From a bacterium (GTDB lineage: Bacteria; SZUA-182; DTGQ01), in assembly GCA_040755755.1 (NCBI GenBank), contig JBFLZW010000022.1, positions 111,554 to 175,553 of the forward strand: a DNA stretch of 64,000 nucleotides, written 5' to 3'. Both the position numbers and the translations under genes were made by a program. The notes beneath the pieces were generated by a model, which had not been told where the DNA came from, did no database searches, and saw only the letters and a list, made by a program, of their open reading frames with translations. Positions 5,430 through 62,063 of this stretch are shown in pieces. Each line of letters opens with the position of its first letter. The first letter of the stretch is position 1.

Positions 5430-5445
5430 CGGCACATGTCTTGCT
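5430..5445 (+). promoter_or_regulatory. Sigma-54 (-24/-12) promoter for NHL/cytochrome operon
   Basis: The site reads CGGCACATGTCTTGCT. GG at 5431-5432 and GC at 5443-5444 have the strict 12-base spacing of the consensus TGGCACG-N4-TTGCW; only the first base and the G after CAC differ. Transcription would start near 5456, about 60 bases before the ATG at 5517. It lies between a sigma-54 activator gene and the operon. Confidence 0.75.
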
Positions 5446-5516
5446 TATTACAAACTCCGGAGAATAACTGATAACTGATGACTGTCTTTGCAGGGCTTCG
5501 GGAGCGGAAGAAATTT

Positions 5517-8502: not shown

Positions 8503-9175
8503 CGTAACTACCCAGGTTCAGAGGGGCAAAGGCAGCTCAACTTCCCGAATAATTGGAAATTACCGATTGACTTGGGTTTATACCTTTGTTATATTATATC
8601 ATATTTGTAAATATGCAACCCTATGTATTTTACGCTGAGTATACTTCTCTGAGACAAGAGATCGCCTCCCCGGCAGGATTATACAGTAGACGAATGCATT
8701 TTCTGATGGGCTGAAATGGCATTTCCTGTCATGGTAAATCGGAGAAACAGCCGATATATGACAATACACTCGAAATCTTGTGAATACTCCTCTGATGTCG
8801 AAGGCGTTGACCACACCCCGGCAGTGAATAATAAGTTCGCATTTTCTTTCATACTGTGTAATCGGATTCATAGTTGATATTTTCTATTCCTGTTTGCCGG
8901 AATAACCTTGAGAATTTCAGGGAAGGGCTCCTGGTTTTTGTTCAGGCCAGTTACCTTCACCAGCAAAAAATCTCGGGATACCAGCCAGGTATGGGGGAGT
9001 CGTGGTATTTATTTTGCATCCTTTAATGATGCACTATGTCGGAGCGGTTTTTGAGGAGCGGGGTTTTTCGGAGTTTTTTCCCGGGCTGACTGAATAACCT
9101 GGCGCGAGTTGAGTAGCGGTGCATGCGGAGAAAATAGATGACGGCACAATTCAAACTTGGAGGGGGATAAGATTT
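8503..9175. other. Intergenic region between the two cytochrome cassettes
   Basis: I see no gene. The first part has an A+T-rich stretch at 8580-8630. The last part carries a sigma-54-type promoter at 9003-9018. A 90-codon minus-strand frame has no ribosome binding site and no recognisable features. Confidence 0.6.
9003..9018 (+). promoter_or_regulatory. Sigma-54-type promoter ahead of second NHL/cytochrome cassette
   Basis: The site reads TGGTATTTATTTTGCA. GG at 9004-9005 and GC at 9016-9017 have exact -24/-12 spacing and a perfect TTTGCA -12 box; the CACG part of the -24 box is not kept. Transcription would start near 9029, about 150 bases before the ATG at 9176. Confidence 0.55.
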
Positions 9176-10261: not shown

Positions 10262-10466
10262 TCATGTCTATCAGTCAATAAACAGCTTATTGAAAAAGGG
10301 AAGGAGTGGACAATGATGACGTAGCCGGTGATTGAATGGAGAGATTCGATTTTGAGAGTTTGGGAAGGTTGTTATTATCCGGAATTGAGAGGGTTTAAAA
10401 TTTAAGATGCTGAACCGTATTAAAATGGTTGGGAGAGAGTGCTTATGGAAGAGAGGGGATCGAACA

Positions 10467-12734: not shown

Positions 12735-12816
12735 GTCGAAAGCTTGGGCTGATGTTGAGCTGGAGCTGTAGTTGAAGGCACCCGTCAAAGGGCCTTGATT
12801 CTGAGAATTACACTAT

Positions 12817-12857
12817 CCCTGGGGTTTCTGATGGTAAGGAAACCCCAGGGTGTTTTT
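12817..12857 (+). terminator. Rho-independent terminator after cytochrome operon
   Basis: CCCTGGGGTTTC (12817-12828) pairs perfectly with GAAACCCCAGGG (12839-12850) across a 10-base loop and is followed by TGTTTTT. Confidence 0.85.
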
Positions 12858-13348
12858 GAGACTCCAATCTCTTGCCGAAACGCAACCACATAAATACCCC
12901 AGATCCAGAGAAAATTCTCCGCTAGTTTCTTCTTGCCAGTGGTCCATAGTAAGAAACGCCAGTTTGCCCAGCGGCTGAAACACGCCGCAGAAAAAAATAG
13001 CAATTTTTATATAATTAAGCTAAGATAATAAACAAAAGTTTTTCCACGAAAAGGCAAAATATAGTCGCTCATGTTGAGATACATGGCACAACATCCGGTG
13101 ACCCGCAGTAAGGATGGGGAGAAATACAACACTGCCATGTCGTCTTTCCCATAAGAGCGAAGATAGTAGCTTATATGGTTCAGATGAGGATGGTTTTACC
13201 CTATGGCCCCTGTTTACCGCGCTGGGTATTTGGTTAACATCATCGTGTATTAAGGGCAGGAGGGGGGGCTTTGAAAAAGGAAAAGTTGGTTGATGGTTAA
13301 TAAATACAGGCAAGAACAGCAAAACAAAGGCAAACGGGAGGAATTACC
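12858..13348. other. Intergenic region ahead of large secreted protein
   Basis: No gene seen. An A+T-rich part (13000-13040) may hold a promoter, but I cannot name clear boxes. A near-miss sigma-54 element (TGGCACA at 13085) lacks a correctly spaced GC, so I do not call it. Confidence 0.5.
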
Positions 13349-43576: not shown

Positions 43577-44416
43577 TTAAAACCGGCAGGTCATCCCTGA
43601 ATAGCCGGATAATACGCAATCCCCGAAAGAGTTCCTGAGTGCCTGGACAGCCTGATCACCGGTGCAGTGGCAGGGTATCAGCATCCTGGGCGACAGGGAA
43701 TGCAGGGCTTCTGCGGTTTGTTCAAGTCGCCGGTTATCGGCACGAAGAAGATGAAAACCGCCGATGACCGCCCGGATCGGGGAATTTCCCCTGAGCCGCC
43801 GTATCGAGGTCAGGGTGTTTACCAGTCCGGCGTGGCAGCATCCAACACACACAATCAAACCTTCCTCTGAGCTGATCCAAAGAGCCTGGTCATCTGCAAT
43901 GCAGTCTTTCTGCTCTCCTTTCGGATCAAGAAAAAAGGGGCCGCCGACGTCCTCGAAGGATGTCTCGCGGGGGATCGGCCCGGTTATGCCAATCTGTCCG
44001 GTGAAGGTTAATGGCTGAGTTGCCCAGATAATCCTTCCATCGGGTACCCGAAGGATAGCAGACCTGGCTGCAGGGGGCATGCCGATCGGCCTGGGCGGTT
44101 TCTCAGGATGGATACTATACCGTGGCACTACGGCATTCGGGTGCAGGATCAGGCTGGCACTTATTGCGACCCTCAAGGCAGCAGCCAATCCCCCCGTGTG
44201 GTCATAGTGGCCGTGACTTACCACCATGAAGTCGGTCTTTTCCAGGGGGATCCCGAGTTGGCGGGCGTTTTCCGGAAGAGCCTTGCCCTGCCCGGTGTCG
44301 AACAGGATGCACTTCCCATCGGCCTCTATCCAGAGCGATAACCCATGCTCGGCGACCAGCCCGGTTCCTGGTTTATTATCAACCAGTATGGTAATACTGA
44401 CAGACCCGGTGTACAT
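43577..44416 (-). CDS. MBL-fold metallo-hydrolase
   Basis: The 279-residue protein has the metallo-beta-lactamase metal motif SHGHYDHTGG, an upstream FDTGQG strand, CVGCCHAGLVNTL and a late IPCHCTGDQA. This pattern fits the subgroup annotated as dihydropterin-aminobenzene-phosphate synthase-like hydrolases, often linked to Mrp/ORP genes. The ATG follows GGAGAGGG. It lies downstream of the Mrp fusion gene on the same strand, separated by a palindrome and repeats. Confidence 0.88.
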   Translation of the reverse strand: MYTGSVSITILVDNKPGTGLVAEHGLSLWIEADGKCILFDTGQGKALPENARQLGIPLEKTDFMVVSHGHYDHTGGLAAALRVAISASLILHPNAVVPRYSIHPEKPPRPIGMPPAARSAILRVPDGRIIWATQPLTFTGQIGITGPIPRETSFEDVGGPFFLDPKGEQKDCIADDQALWISSEEGLIVCVGCCHAGLVNTLTSIRRLRGNSPIRAVIGGFHLLRADNRRLEQTAEALHSLSPRMLIPCHCTGDQAVQALRNSFGDCVLSGYSGMTCRF

Positions 44417-44481
44417 TTTTCCCTCTCCGAGGATTCAGCCAATAATGCTGCTTCCGGCTTTACTCATCAGGGGCAATCAGG

Positions 44482-44522
44482 GGGCAAATGGGGACAGATT
44501 TGAAATCTGTCCCCATTTGCCC
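44482..44522. repeat. 20-bp perfect palindrome
   Basis: GGGCAAATGGGGACAGATTT at 44482-44501 and its exact complement at 44503-44522 are separated by one base. It may form a cruciform, or a hairpin ending the Mrp operon transcript. The core GGGGACAGATTTGAAATC resembles repeats found in many bacteria. Confidence 0.85.
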
Positions 44523-44524
44523 TA

Positions 44525-44582
44525 TTCACTGATCACTGACCACTATCTTTTACTGACCACTGACCACTGATCACTGACCACT
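44525..44582. repeat. ACTGACCACTGATCACTGAC repeat
   Basis: Tandem-like copies of CTGATCACTGACCACT and CTGACCACTGACCACT. The same family lies at 35005-35068. Confidence 0.7.
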
Positions 44583-44590
44583 TCTTTCCC

Positions 44591-46276
44591 TCAATGATCG
44601 CAGACGTTATCACCCACTTCGAGTGTTCCGGCAAGATAGTCGGTAATCAGCCGTTCGGGAGTTTCGGCGGGAGCGCCCACTATTACCTGGATTCCCCGCT
44701 CGGCAAACAGGTTTTGAGCGCGCTGGCCCATACCGCCGGCGATGATGAGCGTGGCTCCCCGCTCCCCCAGCCAGGGCGGTAAAAGTCCAGGCTGGTGCGG
44801 TGGGGCTTCTATATCTTCACGTTTCAGTATCTTCTTTGCTGCCGGGTCCACATCGACCAGGGCGAAATGCCCGCAGTGGCCAAAATGCATCGACAATTTT
44901 CCATCCGCGATGGGAATAGCGATCCGCATGGATATATCCTCCTTGGTTTTCAGGTATTCTTCATTTTTATTCAGCGATTCCATCTCGTCCCCGCCCAGTC
45001 CGTCCAGCGCCTTGATCGGCTGGATAATTTCCTGCATGATCTTTGCCGTAGGGGAATCGGCATAATGAGAAAGGAAAGCATGGCCATCGTCGCAGGATTC
45101 AGCGATTTTGGGGTCTATGGGGATAGAGCCGAGGAAGGGCACCTTCATGTCTTCGGCAATGCGCCGTCCACCTCCGGTACGCAGGATCGGTGTAACCTGG
45201 CCGCAATGCGGACAGGCGAATCCGCTCATATTCTCCACTACGCCCAGTACCGGCACCTGCATTTGCCTGCAAAAGGAAATGGACTTGCGCACATCCACTG
45301 CCGCGACCTTCTGCGGAGTGGTGACGATCACCGCTCCATCGACCCTGCCGAGCAACTGGCAGACGGACAGCGGCTCATCGCCGGTGCCCGGTGGTGAATC
45401 AACCACCAGAAAGTCCAGGTCTCCCCAGGCCACATCCTTGAGGAACTGCCTGATAACCCCTGTCTTCATAGGTCCCCGCCAGATAACGGCATCATCCTGG
45501 TTGGAGAGAAAAAGGCCCAGGGACAGAACTTTCAGTCCATCGAGGTCCGCGGGGAGTAAATCTTCCCCTCTTCCGTTAACCGAGCCGAATTCCAGGCCAA
45601 GCATGGTTGGCACGCTGGGCCCGTGAATGTCCACATCCAGCAGTCCGACCTTTTTCCCCGATCTTGCAAGGGCAATAGCCAGATTAACGGCCACGGTGCT
45701 TTTCCCGACCCCGCCCTTGCCTGACATCACCACAATTTTATGGCTGATCCGGCACAGCCGCTGCTCAAGCTTCTGGCGCTCCCTGTATTCTTCATCGTTT
45801 TCGTCCGAACGGCGGCGGGAAGCGGAACAAGATGAGTCGCTGCAGGTATCACAGGTTGCCCCTGCCCTGGATGAGGCTTTGTCAGACTTCAGGTGTTCAT
45901 TGTGCAGATACTCTTCGCAGGCGGCTTTCAGGGTATTGGCCGCCAGCAGGGCGCAGTGTTCGACTTCGGCGGGCAGCCCTCCCAGAGCATGGAGAATGTC
46001 CTGCTGCCCCATAGCGGCCGCATCCGTGACGCTTTTTCCAATAGCCAGGCAGGTAGTCATGCTTCCACTGGCAATCGCCGGCTCGCATCCGTCGGTGGAG
46101 AAGGACACCTTTTTAACCTTATGGTCACGAACCAGGAGCCAGATTTCCATGGTATCACCACAGGGTCCGGTAATTCTGGCGTGACCGTTGAATGCCGACA
46201 GCGGTCCATTGTTTCTCGGATTCTGCGCATGCTCGCGCACTATTGGTGAAAAATCCAGGGTTTCATGCAACTTCAT
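44591..46276 (-). CDS. IscU/NifU-like scaffold, Mrp ATPase and ORP/NifX-like domain fusion
   Basis: The ATG at 46276 follows GGGAGGT; an upstream in-frame ATG at 46330 is inside the previous gene. Domains: an IscU/NifU-like scaffold (about 1-130) with GPCGD (Cys39), DGCEPAIASGS (Cys64) and EHC (Cys108); a Cys-rich linker (CDTCSDSSCSAS); an Mrp/NBP35 P-loop ATPase (about 175-430) with GKGGVGKST, DVDIHGPSVP and a CPHC zinc or Fe-S pair; and a C-terminal NifX/NafY-type domain (about 445-560; MRIAIPIADGKLSMHFGHCG). Mrp ATPases carry Fe-S clusters, and Mrp-ORP fusions are known from Desulfovibrio. Adding a scaffold domain at the N-terminus suggests one protein that builds and delivers clusters. 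The gap to the upstream ATPase gene is 2 bases. Confidence 0.93.
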   Translation of the reverse strand: MKLHETLDFSPIVREHAQNPRNNGPLSAFNGHARITGPCGDTMEIWLLVRDHKVKKVSFSTDGCEPAIASGSMTTCLAIGKSVTDAAAMGQQDILHALGGLPAEVEHCALLAANTLKAACEEYLHNEHLKSDKASSRAGATCDTCSDSSCSASRRRSDENDEEYRERQKLEQRLCRISHKIVVMSGKGGVGKSTVAVNLAIALARSGKKVGLLDVDIHGPSVPTMLGLEFGSVNGRGEDLLPADLDGLKVLSLGLFLSNQDDAVIWRGPMKTGVIRQFLKDVAWGDLDFLVVDSPPGTGDEPLSVCQLLGRVDGAVIVTTPQKVAAVDVRKSISFCRQMQVPVLGVVENMSGFACPHCGQVTPILRTGGGRRIAEDMKVPFLGSIPIDPKIAESCDDGHAFLSHYADSPTAKIMQEIIQPIKALDGLGGDEMESLNKNEEYLKTKEDISMRIAIPIADGKLSMHFGHCGHFALVDVDPAAKKILKREDIEAPPHQPGLLPPWLGERGATLIIAGGMGQRAQNLFAERGIQVIVGAPAETPERLITDYLAGTLEVGDNVCDH

Positions 46277-46278
46277 TT

Positions 46279-47229
46279 TTACCTCCCAGCAGATACATCT
46301 AAACCTCCCAAACTCATCACCTTGTTCCAAATCTGATTGATATCTTCCGCAGCCGCAGCATCCGTCTCGACTACGGCGAGGGTCTCCAGTTGGGCTTTTG
46401 TTACCCGCCGGTCATACCGGATGCGGCCTGCCGCCTGTGCGCCGCTCAGGCGCGCCTTGTTCTCGATCCGTTCTGTCATCGCGGGGTTGAGATCCCACTT
46501 GTTTACACAAACCAGGGCCGGGATGGCAAAGTGTCGCGTAAGTGCCAGGACCCGTTCGAGGTCATGCTCGCCCGATACGGTTGGCTCGGTCACGATCACC
46601 ACCAGGGATGCTCCGGTCACCGAGGCGATTACCGGGCACCCGATACCTGGCGGGCCATCCACAATTACCAGAGGAAATCCGCTTTCCTCGGCCAGTTGGT
46701 GCGCTTTTCGGCGGACAACCGACACCAGTTTGCCGGAATTTTCGGCTGCCGTACCCAGACGGGCGTGAACCATCGGACCGCAGCGGGTGTCCGACACCAT
46801 CCATTCACCGCAAAGACGTTCCGGGAAATCAATGGCCTGCGCCGGGCAAAAGCGAACACATACCCCGCAACCCTCACAGGCTATGGGGTCAATTGCAAAC
46901 TCCGGCCTGCTGCCTGCTGCCCGGTCCCTGACAGTAATCGCTCCAAAGCGGCAGTTTTCACGGCATGCACCGCATTGGATACAATCCGCATCCCTGATCA
47001 CGGCTTCATGACCGCTTCGAAATTCATGCCGCTCCCGCACCTTCGGCGTAAGGACAAGGTGCAGGTCCGCCGCGTCCACATCACAGTCAGCGACCACCGT
47101 TTCACCGGCGAGGCAGGCAAACGATGCAGTCAGGCTGGTTTTGCCCGTGCCACCCTTGCCGCTGATGACCACGAGTTGCCGGACCGTGACTGGAGATTGT
47201 GGGGCGCTCGACATCGTGGTCACACTCAT
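46279..47229 (-). CDS. MinD-type ATPase with inserted ferredoxin domain
   Basis: The 316 residues have a deviant Walker A SGKGGTGKTSL, two 4Fe-4S motifs inserted after the first 80 residues (CIQCGACRENCRF and CEGCGVCVRFCPAQ), VIVDGPPGIGCP as Walker B, and a late VCVNKWDLNP. It is one of two paralogues here (the other at 47516). Such pairs act together in the Orange Protein complex of sulfate reducers. Its start overlaps the stop of the zinc-ribbon gene (ATGA). Confidence 0.92.
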   Translation of the reverse strand: MSVTTMSSAPQSPVTVRQLVVISGKGGTGKTSLTASFACLAGETVVADCDVDAADLHLVLTPKVRERHEFRSGHEAVIRDADCIQCGACRENCRFGAITVRDRAAGSRPEFAIDPIACEGCGVCVRFCPAQAIDFPERLCGEWMVSDTRCGPMVHARLGTAAENSGKLVSVVRRKAHQLAEESGFPLVIVDGPPGIGCPVIASVTGASLVVIVTEPTVSGEHDLERVLALTRHFAIPALVCVNKWDLNPAMTERIENKARLSGAQAAGRIRYDRRVTKAQLETLAVVETDAAAAEDINQIWNKVMSLGGLDVSAGR

Positions 47230-47495
47230 TCACCGCAGTGCGGAGTCCCGCAGCGGTCGTCGCGCTGGTCGCGGCCGCAGCAGGTCTTGCCTCCCTGCTC
47301 AAAGGAACATCCGCTCTTGCCCGCTCCATGCCGGGTCTGGCCGTTCTCTTTGAGGATAAAACCCGTTCCGCCGCTGACGATGCGCCTGACCACTCCGTGG
47401 CACTTCGGGCACTCGGTAACCGGCACTTCACTGATGGCCTGCTTCTGCTCAAATTTATGGCCGCAAGTCTGGCATTCATATTCGTATGTTGGCAT
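47226..47495 (-). CDS. FmdB-type zinc-ribbon protein
   Basis: The ATG at 47495 follows GGAGGG. The first 45 residues are a zinc ribbon (MPTYEYECQTCGHKFE and ECPKCHG), the FmdB/CxxC regulatory family. The rest is Gly/Cys-rich (CSFEQGGKTCCGRDQRDDRC), a tail also seen in the family. It lies between the two MinD-type ATPase genes. Confidence 0.88.
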   Translation of the reverse strand: MPTYEYECQTCGHKFEQKQAISEVPVTECPKCHGVVRRIVSGGTGFILKENGQTRHGAGKSGCSFEQGGKTCCGRDQRDDRCGTPHCGE

Positions 47496-47515
47496 GCTTT
47501 CCCTCCGATTAAGTA

Positions 47516-48355
47516 TCAATCCAGCACAAATTGCATGATTTGCTTCAAAAGTCGCTTAAAATAATCCCGGTACTCCGGCAGAACATCCACTACAAGGTCT
47601 CCTCTTGAGTAAGCTTCGGCGATCCGCCGGTCATCCGGAATTTCCAGGAGAATGGGAATGCCCTGCTCCCTGCAGAACGTATGGACCCGGTCATCGCCAG
47701 CTCCGACACGGTTGACCACTACCCCAAAGGGAATTCCCAGCTCCCGCACCATGTCAACAGCCAGGGCCAGGTCATGCAGACCAAATGGGGTCGGTTCGGT
47801 AACCAGGACCACACAGTCCGCTCCCCGGAGAGTGACAATCACCGGGCACGAAGTTCCCGGCGGCGCATCCAGGATGGCCGGGGTGTCGCTCCGGATCCTG
47901 GCCTTCACCGCCCGGATAAGAGGCGGTGCCATAGCCACGCCCACATCGAGCCGACCCTGAATCAGGGTGATATGGTCCGACTTCACAATCTCTACCACAC
48001 CAATCCTGTGGTCTTTTTCCCGAATGGCCTTGCGGGGACAGATTTTTGCACATCCGCCGCAACCGTGGCACAGCTCAGGAAACACCAGAGGCCTGGTCGC
48101 AAGAGACACAATGGCATGGTACTGGCAAATGCGGCTGCATTCGCCGCAGGCATCGCACAGCGATTCGTCAACCTGGGGAACAGGAATGGCGATTGTCTCC
48201 TGGTTTTCGGCAGTACCTTGCAGAAACAAGTGGCCGTTCGGCTCCTCCACGTCGCAGTCCAAAAGCTGCACGGCACCGCCGTGCACCCTTGCCAGGTTCA
48301 AAGAGACCGTGGTCTTTCCGGTCCCTCCTTTGCCTGAAGCAATGGCAATAATCAT
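47516..48355 (-). CDS. MinD-type ATPase with inserted ferredoxin domain (paralogue)
   Basis: The 279 residues have SGKGGTGKTTVSLNLA at the N-terminus, two 4Fe-4S motifs (CDACGECSRICQY and CHGCGGCAKICPR), ILDAPPGTSCPV as Walker B, and VVNRVGAGDD. It is a shorter paralogue of the protein at 46279. Its start overlaps the stop of trmO by four bases. Confidence 0.92.
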   Translation of the reverse strand: MIIAIASGKGGTGKTTVSLNLARVHGGAVQLLDCDVEEPNGHLFLQGTAENQETIAIPVPQVDESLCDACGECSRICQYHAIVSLATRPLVFPELCHGCGGCAKICPRKAIREKDHRIGVVEIVKSDHITLIQGRLDVGVAMAPPLIRAVKARIRSDTPAILDAPPGTSCPVIVTLRGADCVVLVTEPTPFGLHDLALAVDMVRELGIPFGVVVNRVGAGDDRVHTFCREQGIPILLEIPDDRRIAEAYSRGDLVVDVLPEYRDYFKRLLKQIMQFVLD

Positions 48356-48870
48356 GAATTCCCCCTGCCGCGAAATCCCCGTCGGCCCCGCTGGCGGGCC
48401 GTTTCCTCATCCACCTGCTCCGTCCATCCGCCACGGGGATTCTCGACCCTGTCAAAACGGGGAATATAGGGTTTGATGTCCAAAAGCGGCGACCCGTCCA
48501 GAATGTCCACATCCTTCAGATAGATGGTCGTCCCTTCGATCCGCACCAGACGCACCACTGAAATACCGATGGGGTTGGGCCGCTGCGGATGCCTGGTGGA
48601 AAAAATACCTCGCGGTATGTTATCAGTAAAAGGCTGAACAGTCAACCGGGCATTGCCTGCCCGATGAAAATGATAAAGGAGGATCAGGTGAGAGAATCCC
48701 TCAAGGTCCTTCAGCCCCCCGGCATATTCAGGCCCTAATTCCGCCCGGCCTGTGCAGCCTTCTGCATAGACAGGCTGAATCGGCGTATTCTCAGGGATGC
48801 AATGCTCACTGTGAATAACGCCAATGGGAGTATAGCAGATCTGGCCGGGCATGGGAGTGGCCCCGCTCAT
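48352..48870 (-). CDS. trmO: TrmO/TsaA-type tRNA methyltransferase
   Basis: The 172-residue protein has the TsaA-family pattern: PIGVIHSEH near the start, DLEGFSHLILLYHFH, the conserved FSTRHPQRPNPIGISVV, and IKPYIPRFD. The family methylates N6-threonylcarbamoyladenosine at position 37 of tRNA with S-adenosylmethionine. Members in ORP/Mrp clusters are common, and their role there is unclear. It overlaps both neighbours by four bases. Confidence 0.9.
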   Translation of the reverse strand: MSGATPMPGQICYTPIGVIHSEHCIPENTPIQPVYAEGCTGRAELGPEYAGGLKDLEGFSHLILLYHFHRAGNARLTVQPFTDNIPRGIFSTRHPQRPNPIGISVVRLVRIEGTTIYLKDVDILDGSPLLDIKPYIPRFDRVENPRGGWTEQVDEETARQRGRRGFRGRGNS

Positions 48871-49229
48871 ACCCAGTGCCCTTCCACATCAGCGGCCTGG
48901 GAGGGGGAGAGCTTCCCGGACCGGAATAAATCGAGGGCTGCGGCCACGGTGGCTGCATCGGTGCTGTAGACCTTTATTCCGGCAGCGGAAAGAACCCGGA
49001 AGGCTTTCGGCCCGCAATGCCCGGTCACGAGACAGGAAGCTCCGGAGCGCGCCACGGTCTCTGCCGCCTGAATGCCAGCCCCTTGAGCTGCATTCAGGTT
49101 TTTCTGATTGTCGATCACCACAAAGGTAGCGGTATCCATGTCATAGATGAGGAACCTGGGAGCACGGCCAAAACGGCTGTCCAGGGGAGCATCCAGGCTC
49201 TCTCCCGATGTCGTAAAGGCAACTTTCAT
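48867..49229 (-). CDS. ORP/NifX-like dinitrogenase cofactor biosynthesis domain protein
   Basis: This stand-alone single-domain protein of 120 residues begins MKVAFTTSGESLDAPLDSRF and has GHCGPKAFRVL, the MTH1175/NifX/ORP pattern. ORP of Desulfovibrio gigas binds a Mo-Cu sulfide cluster. The ATG follows AAGGAG. It is the first gene of a run with ATGA overlaps to trmO and on. Confidence 0.9.
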   Translation of the reverse strand: MKVAFTTSGESLDAPLDSRFGRAPRFLIYDMDTATFVVIDNQKNLNAAQGAGIQAAETVARSGASCLVTGHCGPKAFRVLSAAGIKVYSTDAATVAAALDLFRSGKLSPSQAADVEGHWV

Positions 49230-49861: not shown

Positions 49862-49935
49862 ACTACTTACCAGGAAAGCCCCTCACCCGCCACAGGAGCT
49901 CCCTGCCAGCCCTCTCCCCAAAAAGGGACGAGAGA
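49862..49935. repeat. CCCTCACC..CCCTCTCCCC repeat, intergenic copy
   Basis: TACTTACCAGGAAAGCCCCT and the following CACCCGCC..AGCCCTCTCCCCAAA tract match the in-gene copy at 55851-55904 closely, apart from an extra piece of about 24 bases. Confidence 0.75.
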
Positions 49936-52325: not shown

Positions 52326-52465
52326 GTTCCGGCTGGATGCTTGATATACATGACTTCTCCCTTAAACTTCGACTAGAAAAAATGCTCTTGCATGATTACA
52401 ATAAAACCAGGTGGGGCAGATGACCAGCATACTTAACGTTCATATTTTACTAGGAGGTGCAAACT

Positions 52466-52750
52466 ATGAAGGCAGCCCTGAAAAAACAGCTTGATGAAAT
52501 GACAGAAGATGAGCTTCAGCATCTTCTCAGGAGAGATTATTTAAGAAGGTTGACCCGGTACAGGATGACGGATGACTTTTACCGGCAAAAATATAATATG
52601 GATTTTGAGAGTTTCGAGAAGGCAAATATTGTCCAAAAAGAGAATTACAGCTTTGAGGTTGAATCTGATGCACAAGAGTGGGAACTTGCAGTTGATGGGA
52701 TACAGACACTGGAAAAGAAGCTGAAGGAACTCTCTGGTGAAAATCAATAA
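52466..52750 (+). CDS. Antitoxin-like protein of a TumA/TumE-type pair
   Basis: The ATG at 52466 follows GGAGGTGC. The 94 residues are mostly helical and charged (KKQLDEMTEDELQHLLRRDY, DDFYRQKYNMDFESFEK, ELAVDGIQTLEKKLKEL). It overlaps the next gene by 14 bases. Together they have the layout of a type II toxin-antitoxin operon. The family name is inferred from the partner. Confidence 0.65.
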   Translation: MKAALKKQLDEMTEDELQHLLRRDYLRRLTRYRMTDDFYRQKYNMDFESFEKANIVQKENYSFEVESDAQEWELAVDGIQTLEKKLKELSGENQ

Positions 52751-53075
52751 TATTATCAAAGAGGCCGGTGATGTAGCTGATAAAAACGATTTTTACCTGA
52801 TCGAGAGAGACAGGACTGACAACATCATCAATTTAAACCTGGTGATCGATAATGGGCTGTTTATACAAATCTACGCAAATGCTCAAAAAGATAAAGTTAA
52901 TCTTGCTCTTATTTTTAAAAATCGAAGACTGTATGGCTTTGATTCTGAAGGTGGTAAATATCATTGCCACCCCTTTGATGCTCCTGATCAACACGTATTT
53001 GTTGATGAAAGTAAATCAATAAAGGACTTTGTTCAGGAATCGATAAGGTTTTTAGAAGATAAAGAAATGCTTTAG
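52737..53075 (+). CDS. TumE/DUF6516-like toxin candidate
   Basis: A GTG start within the previous gene gives 112 residues: NINLVIDNGL-like beta strands (NIINLNLVIDNGLFIQIYAN), a NLALIFKNRRLYGFDSEGGK segment, then YHCHPFDAPDQHVFVD and a C-terminal helix (SIKDFVQESIRFLE). The HCHPFDAPDQH pattern is like TumE/DUF6516 toxins. It ends 12 bases before the giant helicase gene, so the three genes may be cotranscribed. Confidence 0.65.
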   Translation: MKINNIIKEAGDVADKNDFYLIERDRTDNIINLNLVIDNGLFIQIYANAQKDKVNLALIFKNRRLYGFDSEGGKYHCHPFDAPDQHVFVDESKSIKDFVQESIRFLEDKEML

Positions 53076-53087
53076 CGGTACGTGGTA

Positions 53088-56000
53088 ATGGCCAAATCTT
53101 CCAGCAACTTATCTTACTACCTCTATGGCTTGAGCAAGTATCTGGAAAACCTCCCCATCACGGATGGAAGATCGGCGTCGTTTCTTCAGGACCTTGGCCG
53201 CGGGTATTATCGGGAGGCACTGGCAGCCAGTGACTGCTACACCCGGCAATCCTTTGAGAAGCAAAGCCTCAAGCTGAAAGGGTTCGTGCGGCAGGGCAGG
53301 GAGGTCTTTGAGCAGGAGGGGCGCTTCTATGAAGCCCTGCTCATGCAATATGGAGGATATCTGCCCCGGCTGCAAGCCAGCCTCCTGGCCGCAGGCGGCC
53401 CGCCTTTGATCTTTCTGGATGTTGAAACCAATTGGTATGGGGAAATCAGGGAACTGGCCTTCCTGCACACCCAGGTTCCGGGCATTTATTTTTATGCCTG
53501 CTCACCACAAGGGCTGCGCCAGCACAGTGGTTCGAATGATTGCTTAAAGGATTACTTAAAGGGTTGCTTAAAGGATTACTTGAAGGATCGCTTGAAGGAT
53601 CGCTCGAAGGACAGGCCGCAAGATTGCCGAAAGGATGTCCCTTCGGCCCTTGCCCAGGGCCTTGAAGCCCTGAAAACCGGAATGCTGGCCAATCCTTACT
53701 GGGTGGGGCACCAGATCAGGGAGCACGATCTTGGTATCCTTAAAAATCATGGGCTTGACATACCGGATGACCAGGTCATCGATACCCTGGAGCTGTCGGC
53801 CATTGCTTATCCTCTCTGGCCGGATCTGCGGCTCCGGTGCCCGCACAGGGCGCTGGAGGATGTTTATCAGACTGTCCGCCTTTTCATCTCGCTGGTCATT
53901 CAGCTCAGAGCCAAGCCTGAAATAGTCAGGAACCGCATCCAACGTGAGCTGCCCATCTTCCAGACCCTCTGGGATATCCTGTCGTCATCCGGTCAACTCG
54001 GCCCGCCCGGCCTGGCAGGTCACCCCGGCCAGGCTAGCCCTGACGTCCCAGCCGGTCAACCTGCCCAGCCCAGCGGCCCGGAGAGATTGCCGGGAACCGG
54101 CAAGGACCTGGCCCCTCTCTATGAGTTGCAGCCGCAAGAGCTGCTCCGGCCAGGGTATGAAGCAGCAGCGATCACCCTTATGCCGGGGAATAATGTGATT
54201 ATCAAGGATCGCCTTCCTTATTGCTTTACGCAGCACGAAGGGACTGCAAGTGCTGGGACTGAAGGCACAGGAGGGGAAGACGCAGAGCCTGGAAGTGCAG
54301 AGGCTGGAAGTGCAGGGGAGGATGAAGGTGCAGGGGCTGAAGGTGAAGGGACTCAAGATGTAGTTCTGGTGGGTTCCGCAGAGCACATCCTGGATGAAGA
54401 GAAAACTCTTGCCAGGGTAACATCGGGGCTGGCCGGGGCCTTTCTCTTCTCCTTTTTTGCAGAGTGCAGGAGCAGAAAGGTTCCCTGCTCAGGATACCTT
54501 CTCCATCCCATCCCGCACCGGAAATGGTGCCAGGGAAAGCTTCAGTTTATCAGACCGGAGCGCTATCCGCCGGGATTCTGTCTGCACGAGTACGAGCATT
54601 ACCCGGTATGCCCGGAATGTCCTCCGGAAGGCTCGCAGGATGCCGGGCAAAAGCCCGGTCAAAAGCAAAAGAATAGGCTAGAACCTGGGCACGAGCCTGG
54701 AAAAAGTCCCGGTCAGGGTCAAGGGTCCGGGCAAGAGCCCGGCAAAGGGACGCGCAGGGTTTATTTTCTGGAGGAACTGCCCCTTTTGAACCTGACCGAG
54801 CAGGAGTTTAAAACCCTCCACTGGCCAGACCGGGCATCTTATTATCTTTCCCGGCTGGAATGGTCTTTCGATTCAGCCGGATGGCCAGCCCGGCTCAGGG
54901 AATTCTGGCCTGCTGAGGCGGATGAGGCCAGAAGGCAGCAGAAAAAAAGGATCAATTTTTTGCTCCATCGCGCAAGCCGGAACTGGCTCCGGCTGCCAAA
55001 GGCTGAGACCGGAACTTCAAATCAGGCCGGTCAGGCTGCTCAGGCCGGACAGGGCCGGGAGCCGGGCAGAAATTACCTGTGGGAGAGCGGATTTCTCCTC
55101 CTGAACGTTCTGACCGGCGAGATTCGCCTCTATCCTCAGCTTGAGTCTTTGCCCTGGCTGGTTGCCATTGATCAGGCTGCCAGCAGTCCGGCTGCTGCCG
55201 GAAAGCAGTCGCCGCAGCGGGCTGTCACTACCACCAGGTTTATCAGAGTCATTCCTGATGAGCGGCAGTTTCTTATCTCTCCGGACTCTCCCTATCACCA
55301 TACCTTTTACTCCACCCTGCTGCTCTGCATTCTTCAGCAGGTACGGAAAGGAAACCGGGTGGTCTTCCTGTACGATCCGGAAAAATGCTCCAGCCGCAAT
55401 CCCTGGCCGGAAATCATCCGGTCTCTGAAGGCCGGGAAGATACGGGTTAATATGGCACGCAGCAGCGAACAGACCATTTCGGCTGATGGTGCCCACAGCA
55501 GCGCACAGGCCGGTCCGTCAGGCATCGGAGGGATAAGTGAGGGGTGGCATAAGCCAAAGGTCAGCCGGAGCGGAATCTTTCGGAACCTGGAGCTGCTTTT
55601 CCAGGGGAGACAGGAAGCCTGTTTTTTCCCGGTCACGGCCCTGGCGGAGGTTGTGGAGGCTTTCTCCTTCCATCAAAGAGCCTTTCCGGATGGGAAGCAG
55701 ATCTGCCGGCAGCGGCCAATCCTGCTGCTCGAATCTCTGCCCTTTCGCATCCCACTCGGTTACAGCCTGTTTGCTTCAGGCGGGAGTGAAGGTATAACCT
55801 TGAGCTGCCTTCCTTCTGTGCCCCTCAAGAGCGATGATAGTAACTTCAAGCTACTTACCAAGAAAGCCCCTCACCCCAGCCCTCTCCCCAAAGGGGCGGG
55901 GGAGAACAGGTGGCCTCAAAGAGCGGAGGATGAAGATTTTCATCCCACCGGAGAAACTTATCCTGCCGGAGAAACTTGCTCCGCCGGGGATATTCATCCC

Positions 56001-59000
56001 GCCGAAGATACCCCTATCGGGGATATTCATTCTCTGGAGCTGATTTTTCGGAAGTTTCGTCCCTTCTACCAGAAATTATTTGACGGCCTTGATGCGGTCC
56101 ACTTCTTCGACTACCGGATCCCGGATATCGAGACCAGTCGATGGCCCATGCCGCCTGCGCAGAAGGATGATGGGGATGTGCGGGAAAAGGTCAATCAGCT
56201 CTTTAACCCCAGGGGCTGGGAGGAGCAGCAGGAGGCCGACCGGGAGAGGGATATTGACCTTTTGCTTCGGCATGTTTTCTTTCGGGAGGGGGAATTTTCC
56301 CAGGAGCAGTATGAAAAGACGCAGAAAAAGAATGTGGATGAATTTTTCGATTCAAAAGACAGCCGTCACCGGCTGATCACCCTTCCCACTGGAGGAGGAA
56401 AGTCACTGATCTTTCAACTGCCGGCCATTATCCGGACCGCCTGTTCCGGCAGGCTGGTAGTGATCATTTCACCACTCAAGGCCCTGATCCAGGAGCAGTC
56501 GTTCAAGCTGTGCTCCCTGGGGATGTTCGATTTTGTTGCAGGATTTCACCAGGACCTCGACCGGGAAGAGGTTGACCTGCTCTACCGCCAGATTCAGGAC
56601 GGCACGCTGCGCATTGTCTACGTGACACCGGAGCGGTTTCGCTCCCCTGCCTTCCGCAAGGTTTTACAGCGCAGGGCAGCGCTGGATAGCGGGCTTGAGT
56701 TTGTGGTTTTCGATGAAGTCCACTGCGTTGCGGACTGGGGATATCATTTCCGTCCGGATTATCTGTGCTGCTATCAGGACCTTTTGCTTCATGAGATTTA
56801 TGGCCGGGTTCAGGGCTTTCTCTTCTCAGCCACAATCACCGAAACAAACCTGCGCCTTCTGGTCGAAAAAGTCCGGCCTTTGGAATCTGAAGATCAGGGA
56901 ATCACAGGAAATCAAGTGATCAGGGATGTCAATCCGGAAAACCGGGTACCCTTGCGGCCGGAAATTGAAAAGTATATTTTCCCCGTTGGCAGGGCTCTGG
57001 CGGATAAAGGGCAGGGCAGGGAGGCAGAAGGGGAGGGGAGCAGCCAGAATGCGCCGGAGAGCATTCATAGCCCCGGACTGCCGAATGGTTCAGACATTGA
57101 GCACCCCTCCCACCTGAATCCATCCCACAAGCTCATGGCAGTGCCCGGCCTCAAACTGATGACAATGCCCGCCAGGGCATCGGAAATTCAGGCTGAGCGG
57201 CTTTCGGCTATCAGGAAAATCATTGAAGACAATCTGGACTCCCGGTCGTTTCGGGCGCTTATCTTTTACCAGTCCCAGACCGGCACCGAGGAACTGGCAG
57301 AGGCGCTCAATGAAGCCCTGATTAAAGACCGGCAGGGCAGGCTCGTTCATTTCGACTGCTTTCATGCCGGAATACCGGTGGAGGAGCGGGAGATGATCTA
57401 TCGCCGTTTTGCCGGGGGAGAGATTCAGGCACTGGTGGCTACCCGGGCTTTCGGCATGGGCATGGATATACCAAATATTTCGCTGGTCATTCATTACCAG
57501 CGACCGCAGACCCTGGAGGAGTATCTCCAGGAGATAGGGCGGGCAGCCAGGCAGCGGAGCCGGTTTTCCACACCTGCCCGTGCCTATGTACTCCTTGCAC
57601 CTGACGGCATCGAGGGGAGTGGGAGTGAGGGAATCGCGCAGCAGCAGGATGCGGCCTCTGTGCCGGATCTGACCAGGGAGGCGGTGCTGAATATCCGCTC
57701 CGAGCTGATGGAGCAGGTTTTCAAGAAGGGGACGCTTCGGGAAGCCACCTTTTCCCTGCAATTTCATGGTCTGGAATTCCGGTTCGATGAGCGCCTGGCC
57801 GGTATATCCAAATTTTCTTTCGCTCCGCAAAAAAGGAGAAAGGAGGCCATAGTCCGAAGCGCTCTCTATTGGCTGTCCCAATACGAGGCGGGAATCTTCG
57901 AGTGGGGCGAATACCGGCTGTACGGCCTTGAAGTGGACCTGATCGGCGAGCCTGCGCTGTTTCCTTCCGATAAGCCCTGGCAGAAAGAATTGCACAAAAC
58001 CGCACGGGCGGTTTTCTCTCTTCAGGAGATGATCCGGCAGTACGATGGGGATGAGCGGGCCTGCTACCTGGATATCCTCCACTTCCAGAGGGAGGGAGCA
58101 ATCGCCATCTCACACCGCAGCATTCAGCCGACATCCTTTGTCCTGCCTGGCCGGTCGGAAAAAGGCAATCCGTGTGCGCCGGATGCCAACCCGGCAATGG
58201 ACTGCCGGGAAGCACCTGATGACCGGTCATGTTTTTTCCCGCTGTTCTTCCCCCTGGAGCTGAGCCTGGCCCTGTTTGAAAAAATCCGGCAAAAATACCT
58301 GGGCAGAGAGCCTCTCATTCTCTGGCCAGACCTGGTGGCCTGGATTGCTGCCCTGATCCGTGAGTACCGGCCGCGGGAAAAACTCTTTTTCTCTGAAGAT
58401 GACCGGAAACGGATCTGGGGAGGCACGGAGCCGTCGGCAGAGCTTGAGGAACTCTATCGAAGCGGCTTTTTCCAAAAGCTGCCGGATGGGGCAGATAGTG
58501 CGGATGACAACTGCCTGTATGAGCTTGATCTTTATCACCTTTCAGAAGACCAGTCAACAGCCAACTACCCCTGCCTCGAAGCGTGGATGGAAAAACACCG
58601 CATAAAGATGCTGCATGACCTGGTCAAAAAATCGCGCAGGATCGGCCATCTTTTCCGCTTCTGGCAAAAGCACAAGATCATGGCTTACCGGATGGAAAAT
58701 CCGGTGAAGGAGAAAAACCTTGCCTTCCGTATCCTGGAGATAAACCCGAAACACCGCCTGGACCAGGACGTTGCACTGGCTCAGGAGATTTACCGCTATC
58801 TGCACCGCTCCTGCCAGGCTGAAAGCCGCATGTCCCATGATACTATGGATCATGCAGGCAGATCGAAGCCGGAAGCCTTCGGCCTTCTTGGCATCTATGA
58901 GCGTTTCCATCGGGACCACTCCCTGGAAGAGATGCGGCGGGCACTCATCCTGCTGAAAGTCATGGGATATATCCATTACTTCGAACAGGAGGAGGAAATC

Positions 59001-61409
59001 GGCTACCGGCTGGTCCGCCGGGCTTTTGATCGATGGAACGAGAGTGCTCTTGACAGAATCAGGGAAATCAGCCAACTGGCTAAAGTAAAAGAGTTTTTGA
59101 CCAGGATATTCTTCACCGCCCTGGCCGCTGGGGACCGGGAGCTGGCTGACCAGTTGATTGTCGATTATTTTACCTGCCCCCATTCCGGCAGCTCACCCGG
59201 ATTCTCTGCCCGCACGCTGGCTCTGCTGCAAAAGCCGGAATACGATCAGGTGCGGCTTCGGATTCAGGGATATTTTGCCGAAGAAAAGCTGAAAGGCTAC
59301 CTTGAGGCCAAAGACCGGGAACTTGACGATGACCAGAAGGAACTGGTGGAAACCTTCAGCCGGGGAGAATCGCTGATTGTCAGGGCCGGACCTGGTGCCG
59401 GAAAAACCAGGACCCTGATCTACGCCGTTCTGGACCTTCTGATCAGGAAAGGTGTTCCTCCGGAACACATTCTGCTTCTCTCCTACACCCGCAGGGCAGT
59501 GGTGGAGCTGCACCGGCGTATCCGGGCCTATCAGCCGCAATTCGATCTTTTGAACGACTGGCAGAAGCTGAATATCGATACCTTTCATGGATTTGCCCGG
59601 AAAATCCTGGGACCGGAAGAACGGGCCAGGATCAGGGAGGAGATCAGGGACCGGAAGGGGAGGGGAGGAGAGAGCGGCCAGACAGAGCTGTTTCACCAAA
59701 AGTGCCTGGAGCGGGCAGCCGGGCTTTTCTCAGCCCGGCATTACCACTACCTTCTGATCGATGAATTCCAGGACGTTCTGGCTGAGCGGCTGGAATTTAT
59801 CAAAACCATTATCAGGACTTCTCACCGGGAAAACCTGAAAGTCTTCCTGGTTGGAGATCCCCTGCAGGATATCTTCCACTACCAGTGTCCGCAGGAAGAA
59901 CAATCGAGCTTCGACCTGATCGAGACATACCTGGCCGGGCAATCCATTGCCCATGCTGAAAGAGAGCTGACCAGAAACTATCGCAGCTCCGGCAGCCTCT
60001 GCCGGTTCTTCGACGAGTATGTGGCGGATAACTATGCGCCTTTGCGGAGAATCCATCGTCCTGCCGGTATTTGGAAAAATCAGGCTGATGGGTCCGGGGA
60101 ATCCGGGGAGTTCAATGATCTTGCGGGAGGAATAATCCGGAAGATAGCCCTGGTCAACGCCCCTGATGCCCCTGGCAGGGAAAACCGCACAGCCAGGTAT
60201 TATCAGGCCATGTATCAGCAGATTGCCGAAGACATTACCCGCTGCTGTACCGCTGCCCGCACTGCCCATACGGCTGGGGACCTGCCGGTCTCCCGAAATC
60301 TGTCCATTGCCATTCTTGGCCGGAACAATCAGGAAGTTGAGGCAGCGTTCCATCACCTTTACCGGATACTGTCTCCGCTTGGCCGATGTCTTCCTCTGAA
60401 CGAGAATTTTCCTCTCTGGCGAAGGTGGGACGTCTTTGAGGCTATCCAGCATCTGGCCGGGAAGGAGCGGCAAGGTCTACGGGTTGAGGCAGATGTCATC
60501 CAGGCAGCTTTTAACCGCTTCCGGGACCTTGGGATGGTCCCCGGCTATATCGGATCATACCGGAATTGGGAGCCCCTGGCCATCTGGGTCTATCTCAATG
60601 GCCAGGAAAAGGGATTTGCCCATATCCTGATCCGGCAGGAACAGGAGGAGGAAGAGAACGGGGAGTACAGGCTGCTTTTCGGACACTCCGGGTCCGGTGG
60701 AGGGTATGATGGCTGGAGACAAGCCGGTGTACAGGGGCAGGTCGATATCCGTGAGCTGGAGGATTATCTGATCGAGGAGGCACCTTTGCGGAGAGAGGAA
60801 ATTGCCGGTGGAGAGGGCGGCATCGAGGTGATCTTTTCAACGGTACACAAGGTCAAGGGCCTTGAATTTGACGCGGTCTATCTTCTTCCCTTTGGCATGC
60901 CCCCCAGGAAGAGCAAAGAAGGGGAGGAAAAGAATATCGGTTATGTGGGCATCACCCGTGCAAGGGAGCGGGTTATCCGCTACCTCCCGATCATCCTCCC
61001 GGTCAGGGAGGGAAATCGAGCCTCTCAAGTGTGCAAAAATCAGGGGATGATGCCGGTTGTCCTGTCCTTTCCGGGCCGGGAGCTTATCTCGCGGGAGTTT
61101 GGCCTGCGGTTTGATGCCTGGCGGGAAGGAGGAATAAGACCAAAGGTCGATGAACCGCTCAAGATCAGCCGGACGGGCGAGCTTTTCCTTGACGGGCACA
61201 AGTCGTCGATAGTAATCGGCAAAATCAACCCGAATTGTCTCAAGGGCTGCGGGTCCGGCCCGTGGGCATACCGGATCAGGGAATTATATGTGCGGTTTTA
61301 TTCGGAAGAGGATCCGGCCTACTGGATGGGATACACCGAATTCCTGAAAGATAAGGTAAATCAAGGGGCTTATTTTCTGCTGCCTGTTTTGGAAAGGGTT
61401 CAGGAATGA
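53088..61409 (+). CDS. Giant DEDDh exonuclease / RecQ-type helicase / UvrD-type helicase fusion
   Basis: About 2773 residues; a GTG at 53082 is an alternative start. Residues 110-290: DEDDh 3'-5' exonuclease with FLDVET (Exo I), VGHQIREHDLGIL (Exo II) and HRALEDVYQTVRLF (Exo III), all key residues present. About 300-1080: poorly recognisable, with several low-complexity inserts and a Cys cluster (CLHEYEHYPVCPEC). About 1085-1510: RecQ-like SF2 helicase with TLPTGGGKSLIFQLP, VVFDEVHC (DEVH box), LFSATIT, VATRAFGMGMD and EIGRAARQ. About 1520-2070: accessory region, partly winged-helix-like. About 2085-2700: SF1 UvrD/Rep helicase with RAGPGAGKTRT, LLIDEFQD, VGDPLQDIFHY, TRNYRSS, STVHKVKGLEFD and YVGITRARERV. 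All catalytic motifs look intact. It follows toxin-antitoxin genes. I infer DNA repair or defence against foreign DNA; the sequence alone does not decide. Confidence 0.92.
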   Translation: MAKSSSNLSYYLYGLSKYLENLPITDGRSASFLQDLGRGYYREALAASDCYTRQSFEKQSLKLKGFVRQGREVFEQEGRFYEALLMQYGGYLPRLQASLLAAGGPPLIFLDVETNWYGEIRELAFLHTQVPGIYFYACSPQGLRQHSGSNDCLKDYLKGCLKDYLKDRLKDRSKDRPQDCRKDVPSALAQGLEALKTGMLANPYWVGHQIREHDLGILKNHGLDIPDDQVIDTLELSAIAYPLWPDLRLRCPHRALEDVYQTVRLFISLVIQLRAKPEIVRNRIQRELPIFQTLWDILSSSGQLGPPGLAGHPGQASPDVPAGQPAQPSGPERLPGTGKDLAPLYELQPQELLRPGYEAAAITLMPGNNVIIKDRLPYCFTQHEGTASAGTEGTGGEDAEPGSAEAGSAGEDEGAGAEGEGTQDVVLVGSAEHILDEEKTLARVTSGLAGAFLFSFFAECRSRKVPCSGYLLHPIPHRKWCQGKLQFIRPERYPPGFCLHEYEHYPVCPECPPEGSQDAGQKPGQKQKNRLEPGHEPGKSPGQGQGSGQEPGKGTRRVYFLEELPLLNLTEQEFKTLHWPDRASYYLSRLEWSFDSAGWPARLREFWPAEADEARRQQKKRINFLLHRASRNWLRLPKAETGTSNQAGQAAQAGQGREPGRNYLWESGFLLLNVLTGEIRLYPQLESLPWLVAIDQAASSPAAAGKQSPQRAVTTTRFIRVIPDERQFLISPDSPYHHTFYSTLLLCILQQVRKGNRVVFLYDPEKCSSRNPWPEIIRSLKAGKIRVNMARSSEQTISADGAHSSAQAGPSGIGGISEGWHKPKVSRSGIFRNLELLFQGRQEACFFPVTALAEVVEAFSFHQRAFPDGKQICRQRPILLLESLPFRIPLGYSLFASGGSEGITLSCLPSVPLKSDDSNFKLLTKKAPHPSPLPKGAGENRWPQRAEDEDFHPTGETYPAGETCSAGDIHPAEDTPIGDIHSLELIFRKFRPFYQKLFDGLDAVHFFDYRIPDIETSRWPMPPAQKDDGDVREKVNQLFNPRGWEEQQEADRERDIDLLLRHVFFREGEFSQEQYEKTQKKNVDEFFDSKDSRHRLITLPTGGGKSLIFQLPAIIRTACSGRLVVIISPLKALIQEQSFKLCSLGMFDFVAGFHQDLDREEVDLLYRQIQDGTLRIVYVTPERFRSPAFRKVLQRRAALDSGLEFVVFDEVHCVADWGYHFRPDYLCCYQDLLLHEIYGRVQGFLFSATITETNLRLLVEKVRPLESEDQGITGNQVIRDVNPENRVPLRPEIEKYIFPVGRALADKGQGREAEGEGSSQNAPESIHSPGLPNGSDIEHPSHLNPSHKLMAVPGLKLMTMPARASEIQAERLSAIRKIIEDNLDSRSFRALIFYQSQTGTEELAEALNEALIKDRQGRLVHFDCFHAGIPVEEREMIYRRFAGGEIQALVATRAFGMGMDIPNISLVIHYQRPQTLEEYLQEIGRAARQRSRFSTPARAYVLLAPDGIEGSGSEGIAQQQDAASVPDLTREAVLNIRSELMEQVFKKGTLREATFSLQFHGLEFRFDERLAGISKFSFAPQKRRKEAIVRSALYWLSQYEAGIFEWGEYRLYGLEVDLIGEPALFPSDKPWQKELHKTARAVFSLQEMIRQYDGDERACYLDILHFQREGAIAISHRSIQPTSFVLPGRSEKGNPCAPDANPAMDCREAPDDRSCFFPLFFPLELSLALFEKIRQKYLGREPLILWPDLVAWIAALIREYRPREKLFFSEDDRKRIWGGTEPSAELEELYRSGFFQKLPDGADSADDNCLYELDLYHLSEDQSTANYPCLEAWMEKHRIKMLHDLVKKSRRIGHLFRFWQKHKIMAYRMENPVKEKNLAFRILEINPKHRLDQDVALAQEIYRYLHRSCQAESRMSHDTMDHAGRSKPEAFGLLGIYERFHRDHSLEEMRRALILLKVMGYIHYFEQEEEIGYRLVRRAFDRWNESALDRIREISQLAKVKEFLTRIFFTALAAGDRELADQLIVDYFTCPHSGSSPGFSARTLALLQKPEYDQVRLRIQGYFAEEKLKGYLEAKDRELDDDQKELVETFSRGESLIVRAGPGAGKTRTLIYAVLDLLIRKGVPPEHILLLSYTRRAVVELHRRIRAYQPQFDLLNDWQKLNIDTFHGFARKILGPEERARIREEIRDRKGRGGESGQTELFHQKCLERAAGLFSARHYHYLLIDEFQDVLAERLEFIKTIIRTSHRENLKVFLVGDPLQDIFHYQCPQEEQSSFDLIETYLAGQSIAHAERELTRNYRSSGSLCRFFDEYVADNYAPLRRIHRPAGIWKNQADGSGESGEFNDLAGGIIRKIALVNAPDAPGRENRTARYYQAMYQQIAEDITRCCTAARTAHTAGDLPVSRNLSIAILGRNNQEVEAAFHHLYRILSPLGRCLPLNENFPLWRRWDVFEAIQHLAGKERQGLRVEADVIQAAFNRFRDLGMVPGYIGSYRNWEPLAIWVYLNGQEKGFAHILIRQEQEEEENGEYRLLFGHSGSGGGYDGWRQAGVQGQVDIRELEDYLIEEAPLRREEIAGGEGGIEVIFSTVHKVKGLEFDAVYLLPFGMPPRKSKEGEEKNIGYVGITRARERVIRYLPIILPVREGNRASQVCKNQGMMPVVLSFPGRELISREFGLRFDAWREGGIRPKVDEPLKISRTGELFLDGHKSSIVIGKINPNCLKGCGSGPWAYRIRELYVRFYSEEDPAYWMGYTEFLKDKVNQGAYFLLPVLERVQE
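53540..53635 (+). repeat. 12-bp tandem repeat inside exonuclease domain
   Basis: Eight units of 12 bases (consensus TTGCTTAAAGGA, decaying towards the end) encode a (C/Y/R)-L-K-D tetrapeptide repeat. It lies between the Exo I and Exo II motifs, in a loop where length can vary. Confidence 0.8.
55851..55904 (+). repeat. Intergenic-type repeat inserted in frame in the giant helicase gene
   Basis: CTACTTACCAAGAAAGCCCC and the following TCACCCCAGCCCTCTCCCCA match the intergenic copy at 49862-49935. Here it is read through as LLTKKAPHPSPLPKGAGE, without breaking the frame. Confidence 0.75.
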
Positions 61410-61493
61410 ATCTTGACTGTTACCCGATGATACTGCTATAAATGAAATAACTTTTGGCAGGATTTAAGAATAAGAATTTTTAAGGTGAGCACA

Positions 61494-62063
61494 ATGAACC
61501 TTCATTCGATAAAGCACGACAATCGGCTTAAGCTCAGTTATCAGGATTATGTTTCGTTTCCTTCCGATGGCAAGAGGCATGAAATTGTCGATGGAGAACA
61601 CCATATGGCTCCTTCACCGGAAATAAGGCATCAGGATATCTCGAGAAATCTGGCCTTGATCATAGCATCCTACCTCAAGGAAAATAATCTTGGCAAACTG
61701 CTGTATGCGCCGTGTGATGTCATTTTATCCAACTGGGATATCGTGGTTCCTGATCTGATCTTCATTTCCAGGGAAAACGAGAAGGTTATCACCAGGAAAA
61801 ATATCAGGGGCGTACCTGATCTGGTAGTGGAGATTATCTCGCCGGCCAGCAGGAAATATGATCTTGGCATGAAGAAGAAACTTTATGAGCGCTTCGGGGT
61901 AAAAGAGTACTGGATCATTGATCCCGAGAAAGAAAGAGTAGAGGTCTATACCCTGGTTAACCAGAGATTTCTGGAACCCGAAGTTTATAATCGTGATCAA
62001 GTCATGGGTTCTTCCTTTTTCCCCGGCCTCAGAATAAACCTTACCGAGATTTTTTCATGTTAG
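61494..62063 (+). CDS. Uma2 family (DUF820) endonuclease-like protein
   Basis: The ATG at 61494 follows AAGGTGAG. The 189 residues show the Uma2/DUF820 PD-(D/E)XK-like pattern: RHEIVDGEHHMAPSPEIRHQ, VVPDLIFISREN, GVPDLVVEIISPASRKYDLGMKK, KLYERFGVKEYWIIDPEKE and VEVYTL. The core Asp, Glu and Lys residues (PDL, EIISP, KKKLYE) are present. These genes are common in mobile and repeated loci; their biological role is unsettled. Confidence 0.9.
   Translation: MNLHSIKHDNRLKLSYQDYVSFPSDGKRHEIVDGEHHMAPSPEIRHQDISRNLALIIASYLKENNLGKLLYAPCDVILSNWDIVVPDLIFISRENEKVITRKNIRGVPDLVVEIISPASRKYDLGMKKKLYERFGVKEYWIIDPEKERVEVYTLVNQRFLEPEVYNRDQVMGSSFFPGLRINLTEIFSC

Follow-up and report, generated by a model that had tools for sequence, protein, structure and literature searches.

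A giant exonuclease-RecQ-UvrD fusion protein with a degenerate third helicase fold points to a widespread and most likely defensive family of DNA-processing enzymes

A single bacterial gene that joins a nuclease to two helicase motors of different superfamilies raises the question of whether its product processes the DNA of the host or that of an invader. We addressed this question for a gene located in a 64,000-nucleotide stretch of bacterial DNA (the window, to whose positions all coordinates below refer, unless a relative's locus is named). An open-frame check confirmed the intact frame of about 2773 residues noted in the preliminary description, with a single uninterrupted plus-strand frame of ~8.3 kb (53088-61409, 2773 codons) that begins at an ATG at 53088, or at an alternative in-frame GTG two codons earlier at 53082. 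The gene occurs once in the 5.26 Mb genome, which also encodes separate RecQ-like and UvrD-like genes, and, judging by the sequence, chance is ruled out as the source of an 8.3 kb open frame with its catalytic sites kept.

The predicted DEDDh 3′-5′ exonuclease domain (residues 105-280; 53400-53927, plus strand) is too divergent to be reported by Pfam alone. Its catalytic residues D111, E113, D214, H253, and D258 are nevertheless invariant or nearly so in a 62-row alignment of relatives, the family's exonuclease matches that of Thermus Exo-DinG proteins in a profile comparison (E 3.3e-7), and in the model of a relative the exonuclease fold gives matches with Z ~11 to E. coli ExoI and the T7 polymerase exonuclease, bearing out the complete nuclease first read from the motifs. 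The two helicases held up as well, with strong Pfam and NCBIfam E-values over residues 1069-1490 and 2078-2630. The RecQ-type SF2 helicase (residues 1069-1490; 56292-57557, plus strand; TIGR01389 E 5e-48) contains motifs I, II, III, and VI, with the strings TGGGKS, DEVH, SAT, and QEIGRAAR, and the UvrD/Rep-type SF1 helicase (residues 2078-2640; 59319-61007, plus strand; PF00580 E 1e-27) contains AGPGAGKT, DEFQD, GDPLQ, HKVKGLEFD, and VGITRAR. Nearly all of 78 relatives keep the motif residues of the two motors, and neither this check nor the 62-row alignment revealed any family-wide loss of nuclease or helicase residues. Identity as a RecQ ortholog was rejected in favor of a RecQ-type motor, as the protein scored 163.8 bits with the TIGR01389 equivalog model and 163.3 bits with the TIGR00614 subfamily model, below the curated cut-offs of 640.2 and 219.8 bits, respectively. 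The inter-motor linker (residues 1500-2070; 57585-59297, plus strand), to which no known fold was assigned, is alignable with Rhodobacter and Hymenobacter relatives, and the C-terminal domain (residues 2641-2773; 61008-61406, plus strand) has C-terminal matches in relatives.

Between the exonuclease and RecQ, ~750 residues (300-1080) had been left unassigned and were thought able to hold a sensor or effector. Relatives share a homologous stretch of ~550 residues at this place, with which the middle region of the giant protein aligns weakly. An AF2 model of the giant protein's own front half was poor (pLDDT 54) and gave weak matches only in a PDB search, and we therefore used a confident AF2 model of a Zobellia relative (L046; pLDDT 88, pTM 0.85), built from the same 62 sequences as the alignment. 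Beyond the exonuclease, this model adopts a two-lobed SF2 helicase fold, the best Foldseek matches of which were XPD (E 8e-7) and CasDinG (E 7e-6). In VIA, S. aureus DinG aligned to the whole model across 496 residues (Z 11.0, rmsd 8.7), and E. coli DinG to its helicase part across 361 residues (Z 10.8, rmsd 6.4), but SNF2-type proteins scored nearly as high (Z ~10.5 over ~260 residues), and for this reason an XPD/DinG fold is favored rather than proven. None of the 62 aligned rows keeps a Walker A or DEAH motif in this domain, and a GGKS/T string present in six of them is read as a separate conserved GGxS motif, not as Walker A. In a profile comparison of the exonuclease and middle region with Thermus Exo-DinG, only the exonuclease matched, so the DinG-like reading comes from the fold and not from the sequence. 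What residues 285-1060 (53940-56267, plus strand) appear to hold, in place of a sensor or effector, is thus a degenerate SF2 helicase fold whose closest likeness is XPD/DinG. Given this fold and the lost Walker A and DEAH motifs, the front half resembles, at the level of the model, an Exo-DinG with an ATPase-dead motor, set ahead of two live motors. The ExoDinG proteins of B. subtilis and S. aureus (DinG; PMC11981726, PMC12525004) place an N-terminal DEDD exonuclease before an XPD-like helicase fold, an order that the front half of the giant family appears to share, whereas the DinG-like part of the giant family lacks Walker A and DEAH and is followed by RecQ and UvrD motors in the same chain.

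The fusion is not a one-off. A single-sequence scan of genome contigs gave no relatives, its patterns lying in unconserved stretches, but an alignment-based scan recovered ~60 long relatives with the same domain order, and shorter Exo-RecQ-UvrD proteins occur on plasmids. The giant protein shares with its long relatives the domain order, a homologous middle, the linker, and the C-terminus. Both motors are carried by 70 loci, 41 of which encode exonuclease, RecQ, and UvrD in a single chain of 2211-3102 residues (a contig end clips at least one of the shortest). At 20 of the 70, two neighboring genes, which in most cases share a few bases, divide RecQ between its two lobes (L024, L032, L036, L037, L038, L040-L043, L046, L048, L056, L059, L060, L068, L069, L081, L082, L085, and L096), suggesting that the motor may be reassembled from two polypeptides and offering a natural test of how RecQ lobes assemble. 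Three Succinivibrionaceae members (L083, L098, and L102), at 2900-4400 residues longer than most, gave no detected exonuclease match. In Bacteroidales, an SF1 helicase gene of 590-700 residues lies directly downstream of the giant gene at 11 loci (L025, L026, L027, L029, L031, L045, L064, L074, L076, L078, and L099), and its product is probably a partner of the giant protein. Some relatives, but not all, carry an OB-fold module of the cold-shock or S1 kind, either at the N-terminus or immediately ahead of it, which need not be a defining feature; a Pfam scan found no match to it in the giant protein or in the two small genes upstream. The gene directly upstream at L045 (L045:5088-5867) encodes S1 domains where other relatives have a fused cold-shock domain, and similar upstream genes are present at L025, L027, and L076.

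The family occurs mainly in Bacteroidota and Alphaproteobacteria, and also in Campylobacterota, Myxococcota, Gammaproteobacteria, and Actinomycetota. In a quick tree with long branches, in which several members are metagenome bins, nearly identical members carry labels of different families, and those from Campylobacterota, Myxococcota, and Succinivibrionaceae nest among Bacteroidota, which indicates horizontal transfer, apparently across phyla. With a Zobellia family member as query, only two of 199 Flavobacteriaceae genomes gave a strong match, both of them previously known, and the giant protein was present in one of nine genomes of the window's phylum. The distribution of the family is therefore, on the genomes sampled, patchy and mobile. 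In addition, all 32 family-bearing genomes searched contained a separate full-length RecQ match, 29 above the curated cut-off and the others just below it.

The genes next to the long family recurrently encode HsdM, HsdR, HsdS, McrB, McrC, GIY-YIG proteins, MrfA/YprA-like proteins, and WYL regulators, and in several Flavobacteria the gene pair lies between type I specificity/methylase genes and HsdR. Defence neighbors were found within 10 kb of 21 of 70 family loci and of none of 20 control loci, which were ordinary RecQ genes in family-bearing genomes (Fisher p 0.003; the loci are not phylogenetically independent, and the seeds, namely type I restriction, McrBC, GIY-YIG, and MrfA, were taken from family loci and could favor the family side). 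In PADLOC scans, sets of 115 and 108 family neighbors matched 239 and 218 models, respectively, and 118 control neighbors matched 52, counts inflated by redundant helicase models, and the matches near the family included type I REase, DrmA, DrmD, ZorD, and GajB-like helicases. Compared with ordinary RecQ genes of family-bearing genomes, the family thus lies more often beside type I restriction and McrBC genes and genes of DISARM/YprA and Zorya type, and its homologues did not sit consistently in housekeeping repair operons. Defence islands also gather non-defence cargo.

Taking together the intact conserved sites, the dead DinG-like fold, the ~60 relatives, the neighbor excess, the patchiness, the transfer, and the separate host RecQ, we consider that the giant family rather probably defends the cell against invading DNA. 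On this reading, the gene in the window belongs, as a divergent member, to a widespread accessory family of giant and most likely defensive DNA-processing enzymes that has apparently not been described before; we hold this conclusion, all its parts together, with somewhat better than even confidence. Building on the direct observations (the domains, the kept residues, the lost ATPase motifs, the family spread, and the neighbor excess), we propose that the RecQ and UvrD motors, both 3′-5′ translocases in known families, would unwind DNA or strip it at gaps, forks, or ends, while the dead XPD-like module would act as a single-strand clamp or guide that feeds 3′ ends to the exonuclease, which, by analogy with known families, would degrade them 3′-5′. 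Invading or replicating phage or plasmid DNA could in this way be unwound and degraded with no partner nuclease required, and the OB-fold module, which several relatives have as an N-terminal fusion or in a gene just upstream, may aid self/non-self recognition there. The chances are about even that the family constitutes, more specifically, an undescribed and widespread anti-phage system, in which a single protein or a split-RecQ heterodimer, made of an ATPase-dead Exo-DinG and two live motors, carries out a self-contained unwinding and degradation of invading DNA. If so, a large set of genes that at present carry no label beyond 'RecQ family ATP-dependent DNA helicase' or the like would belong to an antiviral system with an unusual engine, which unites a nuclease with three motors in a single chain, two of them live and from different superfamilies and the third dead.

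The same enzymes could instead form an accessory DNA-repair or replication-restart machine that acts where host forks stall or R-loops form, its gene merely travelling in variable islands. Repair roles are known for every component family, the Bacillus ExoDinG has been connected with replication stress (PMC12525004; PMC11981726), and ~70% of family loci lack any of the defence classes used as seeds; however, the sparse and horizontally moved distribution, the RecQ that the hosts already carry, and the excess of defence neighbors over the RecQ loci of family-bearing genomes all speak against a repair machine, which we regard as unlikely, if the most serious of the alternatives to defence.

Comparison with known machines bears on both the novelty of the family and a further alternative. 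Thermus/Meiothermus plasmids encode Exo-DinG-RecQ proteins (L017-L020; annotated in RefSeq as 'RecQ family ATP-dependent DNA helicase') of ~1650-1680 residues with the same order in one chain, but with intact DinG motifs, no convincing UvrD match in our comparison, and three small genes following. This is plausibly an arrangement related to the giant family, and such plasmid proteins may suggest a stepwise build-up of these machines. At L018, L019, and L020 (and L017), around 5400-14100, the Exo-DinG-RecQ gene is followed by small genes of ~250-320, 160-190, and 500 residues, and it is possible that the four genes make up a separate undescribed system. Compact Exo-RecQ-UvrD proteins of ~1600-1700 residues (Aliarcobacter L012, Bacteroides L013, Deinococcus L014, and Sulfitobacter L015) have the same three enzymes in one chain, but their exonuclease lies just before RecQ, leaving no space for a degenerate helicase, and they form a separate tree branch. 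By tblastn of plasmids, these compact cousins are common there, with an annotation that goes no further than RecQ or UvrD helicase; one lies beside parA/parB, and another has a ParA gene and genes for single-strand binding protein nearby. From this it might be argued that the giant family, too, is a helper of mobile elements, serving plasmid or conjugative DNA processing on entry or the stability of the element. The long family, however, is often found on large contigs and in restriction loci, and the viral contigs sampled gave UvrD-side matches only and no long relative (absence from viruses not being thereby proven), and we consider a helper role distinctly less probable than repair.

Among cellular enzymes, human WRN likewise joins an exonuclease and RecQ in one chain but has neither UvrD nor a dead helicase, and its exonuclease is of another DnaQ type. 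In its mode of working, the giant protein might be compared with RecBCD/AddAB, which likewise bring two motors and a nuclease to DNA ends, but with a nuclease of another fold; the motors of RecBCD run with opposite polarity, while in known families both RecQ and UvrD move 3′-5′. Among the defence systems in PADLOC, the RecQ part is similar to DpdF and PsyrT and the UvrD part to GajB, each covering one motor only, and the scan of the immediate neighbors showed none of the genes that partner them in Dpd, PsyrTA, and Gabija. Dpd was rejected, as NF041063 reached 143.4 bits against a cut-off of 550 and matched the RecQ region only. PsyrTA membership was considered and not accepted, since the best stretch of the PsyrT model is the RecQ motor (E 8.7e-43) and the small upstream genes match nothing, and Gabija was rejected, as only the UvrD motor resembles GajB and the neighbors are a small gene and Uma2 rather than a paired GajA (OLD nuclease). 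For the OB-fold module, TOTE, ARMADA, BRIGADE, and TALON were considered and set aside; the main text of the YprA paper does not mention RecQ. We found no description of the giant family in PADLOC or in the open-access literature searched, where absence is not proof of its being unpublished. Nuclease-helicase fusions in defence are a known kind, and the present combination, a dead DinG-like module plus two live motors that belong to different superfamilies, is apparently undescribed.

The copy in the window stands apart from the family. It sits on the longest branch of the tree (length 2.0), at a place that is not secure in so quick a tree with long branches, and is at most 27% identical to any relative. 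Insertions account for ~430 residues absent from relatives, including an in-frame copy of a short interspersed genomic repeat within the degenerate domain (55842-55923, plus strand; PHPSPLPKGAGE), of which the genome holds several copies, those on other contigs showing 87-96% DNA identity over 48-83 bases; a partial copy lies at 49863-49922. Given this divergence and these insertions, the activity of the window copy could have drifted, but that it is a decaying or expanded relic with an open frame and a product that no longer works is very improbable, as the 8.3 kb frame is uninterrupted and the checked motif residues of the exonuclease and both motors are kept, which is unlikely once selection is lost.

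The immediate surroundings of this copy consist of a Uma2 gene and a pair of small genes, a weak defence context, and the defensive role proposed at the outset is accordingly supported for the family, by its neighbor excess, patchy spread, and transfer, rather than for this copy. The Uma2-family putative nuclease gene lies downstream as described (61485-62063, plus strand; PF05685 E 1.7e-36; PADLOC PDC-S03 E 6e-48). Upstream, an open frame of 97 codons (52457-52750, plus strand; ATG at 52466 after an AGGAGG-type site) is overlapped by a single-copy open frame of 112 codons that ends just before the giant gene (52737-53075, plus strand). Their arrangement fits the toxin-antitoxin-like pair seen initially, but neither matched any family, toxin-antitoxin families included, in the Pfam, NCBIfam, and PADLOC libraries scanned, and the gap of 12 bases to the giant gene applies to the ATG at 53088, being 6 bases from the GTG at 53082. 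The farther flanks, with an Mrp/NBP35-like ATPase and other genes, were judged by eye not to be defence-like. A 621-residue protein of many degenerate HEAT-like repeats is encoded at 37778-39643, and the genes clustered at 43577-49229 on the minus strand look like those for a metallo-beta-lactamase fold protein, Mrp/NBP35-like ATPases, and a NifX-like protein.
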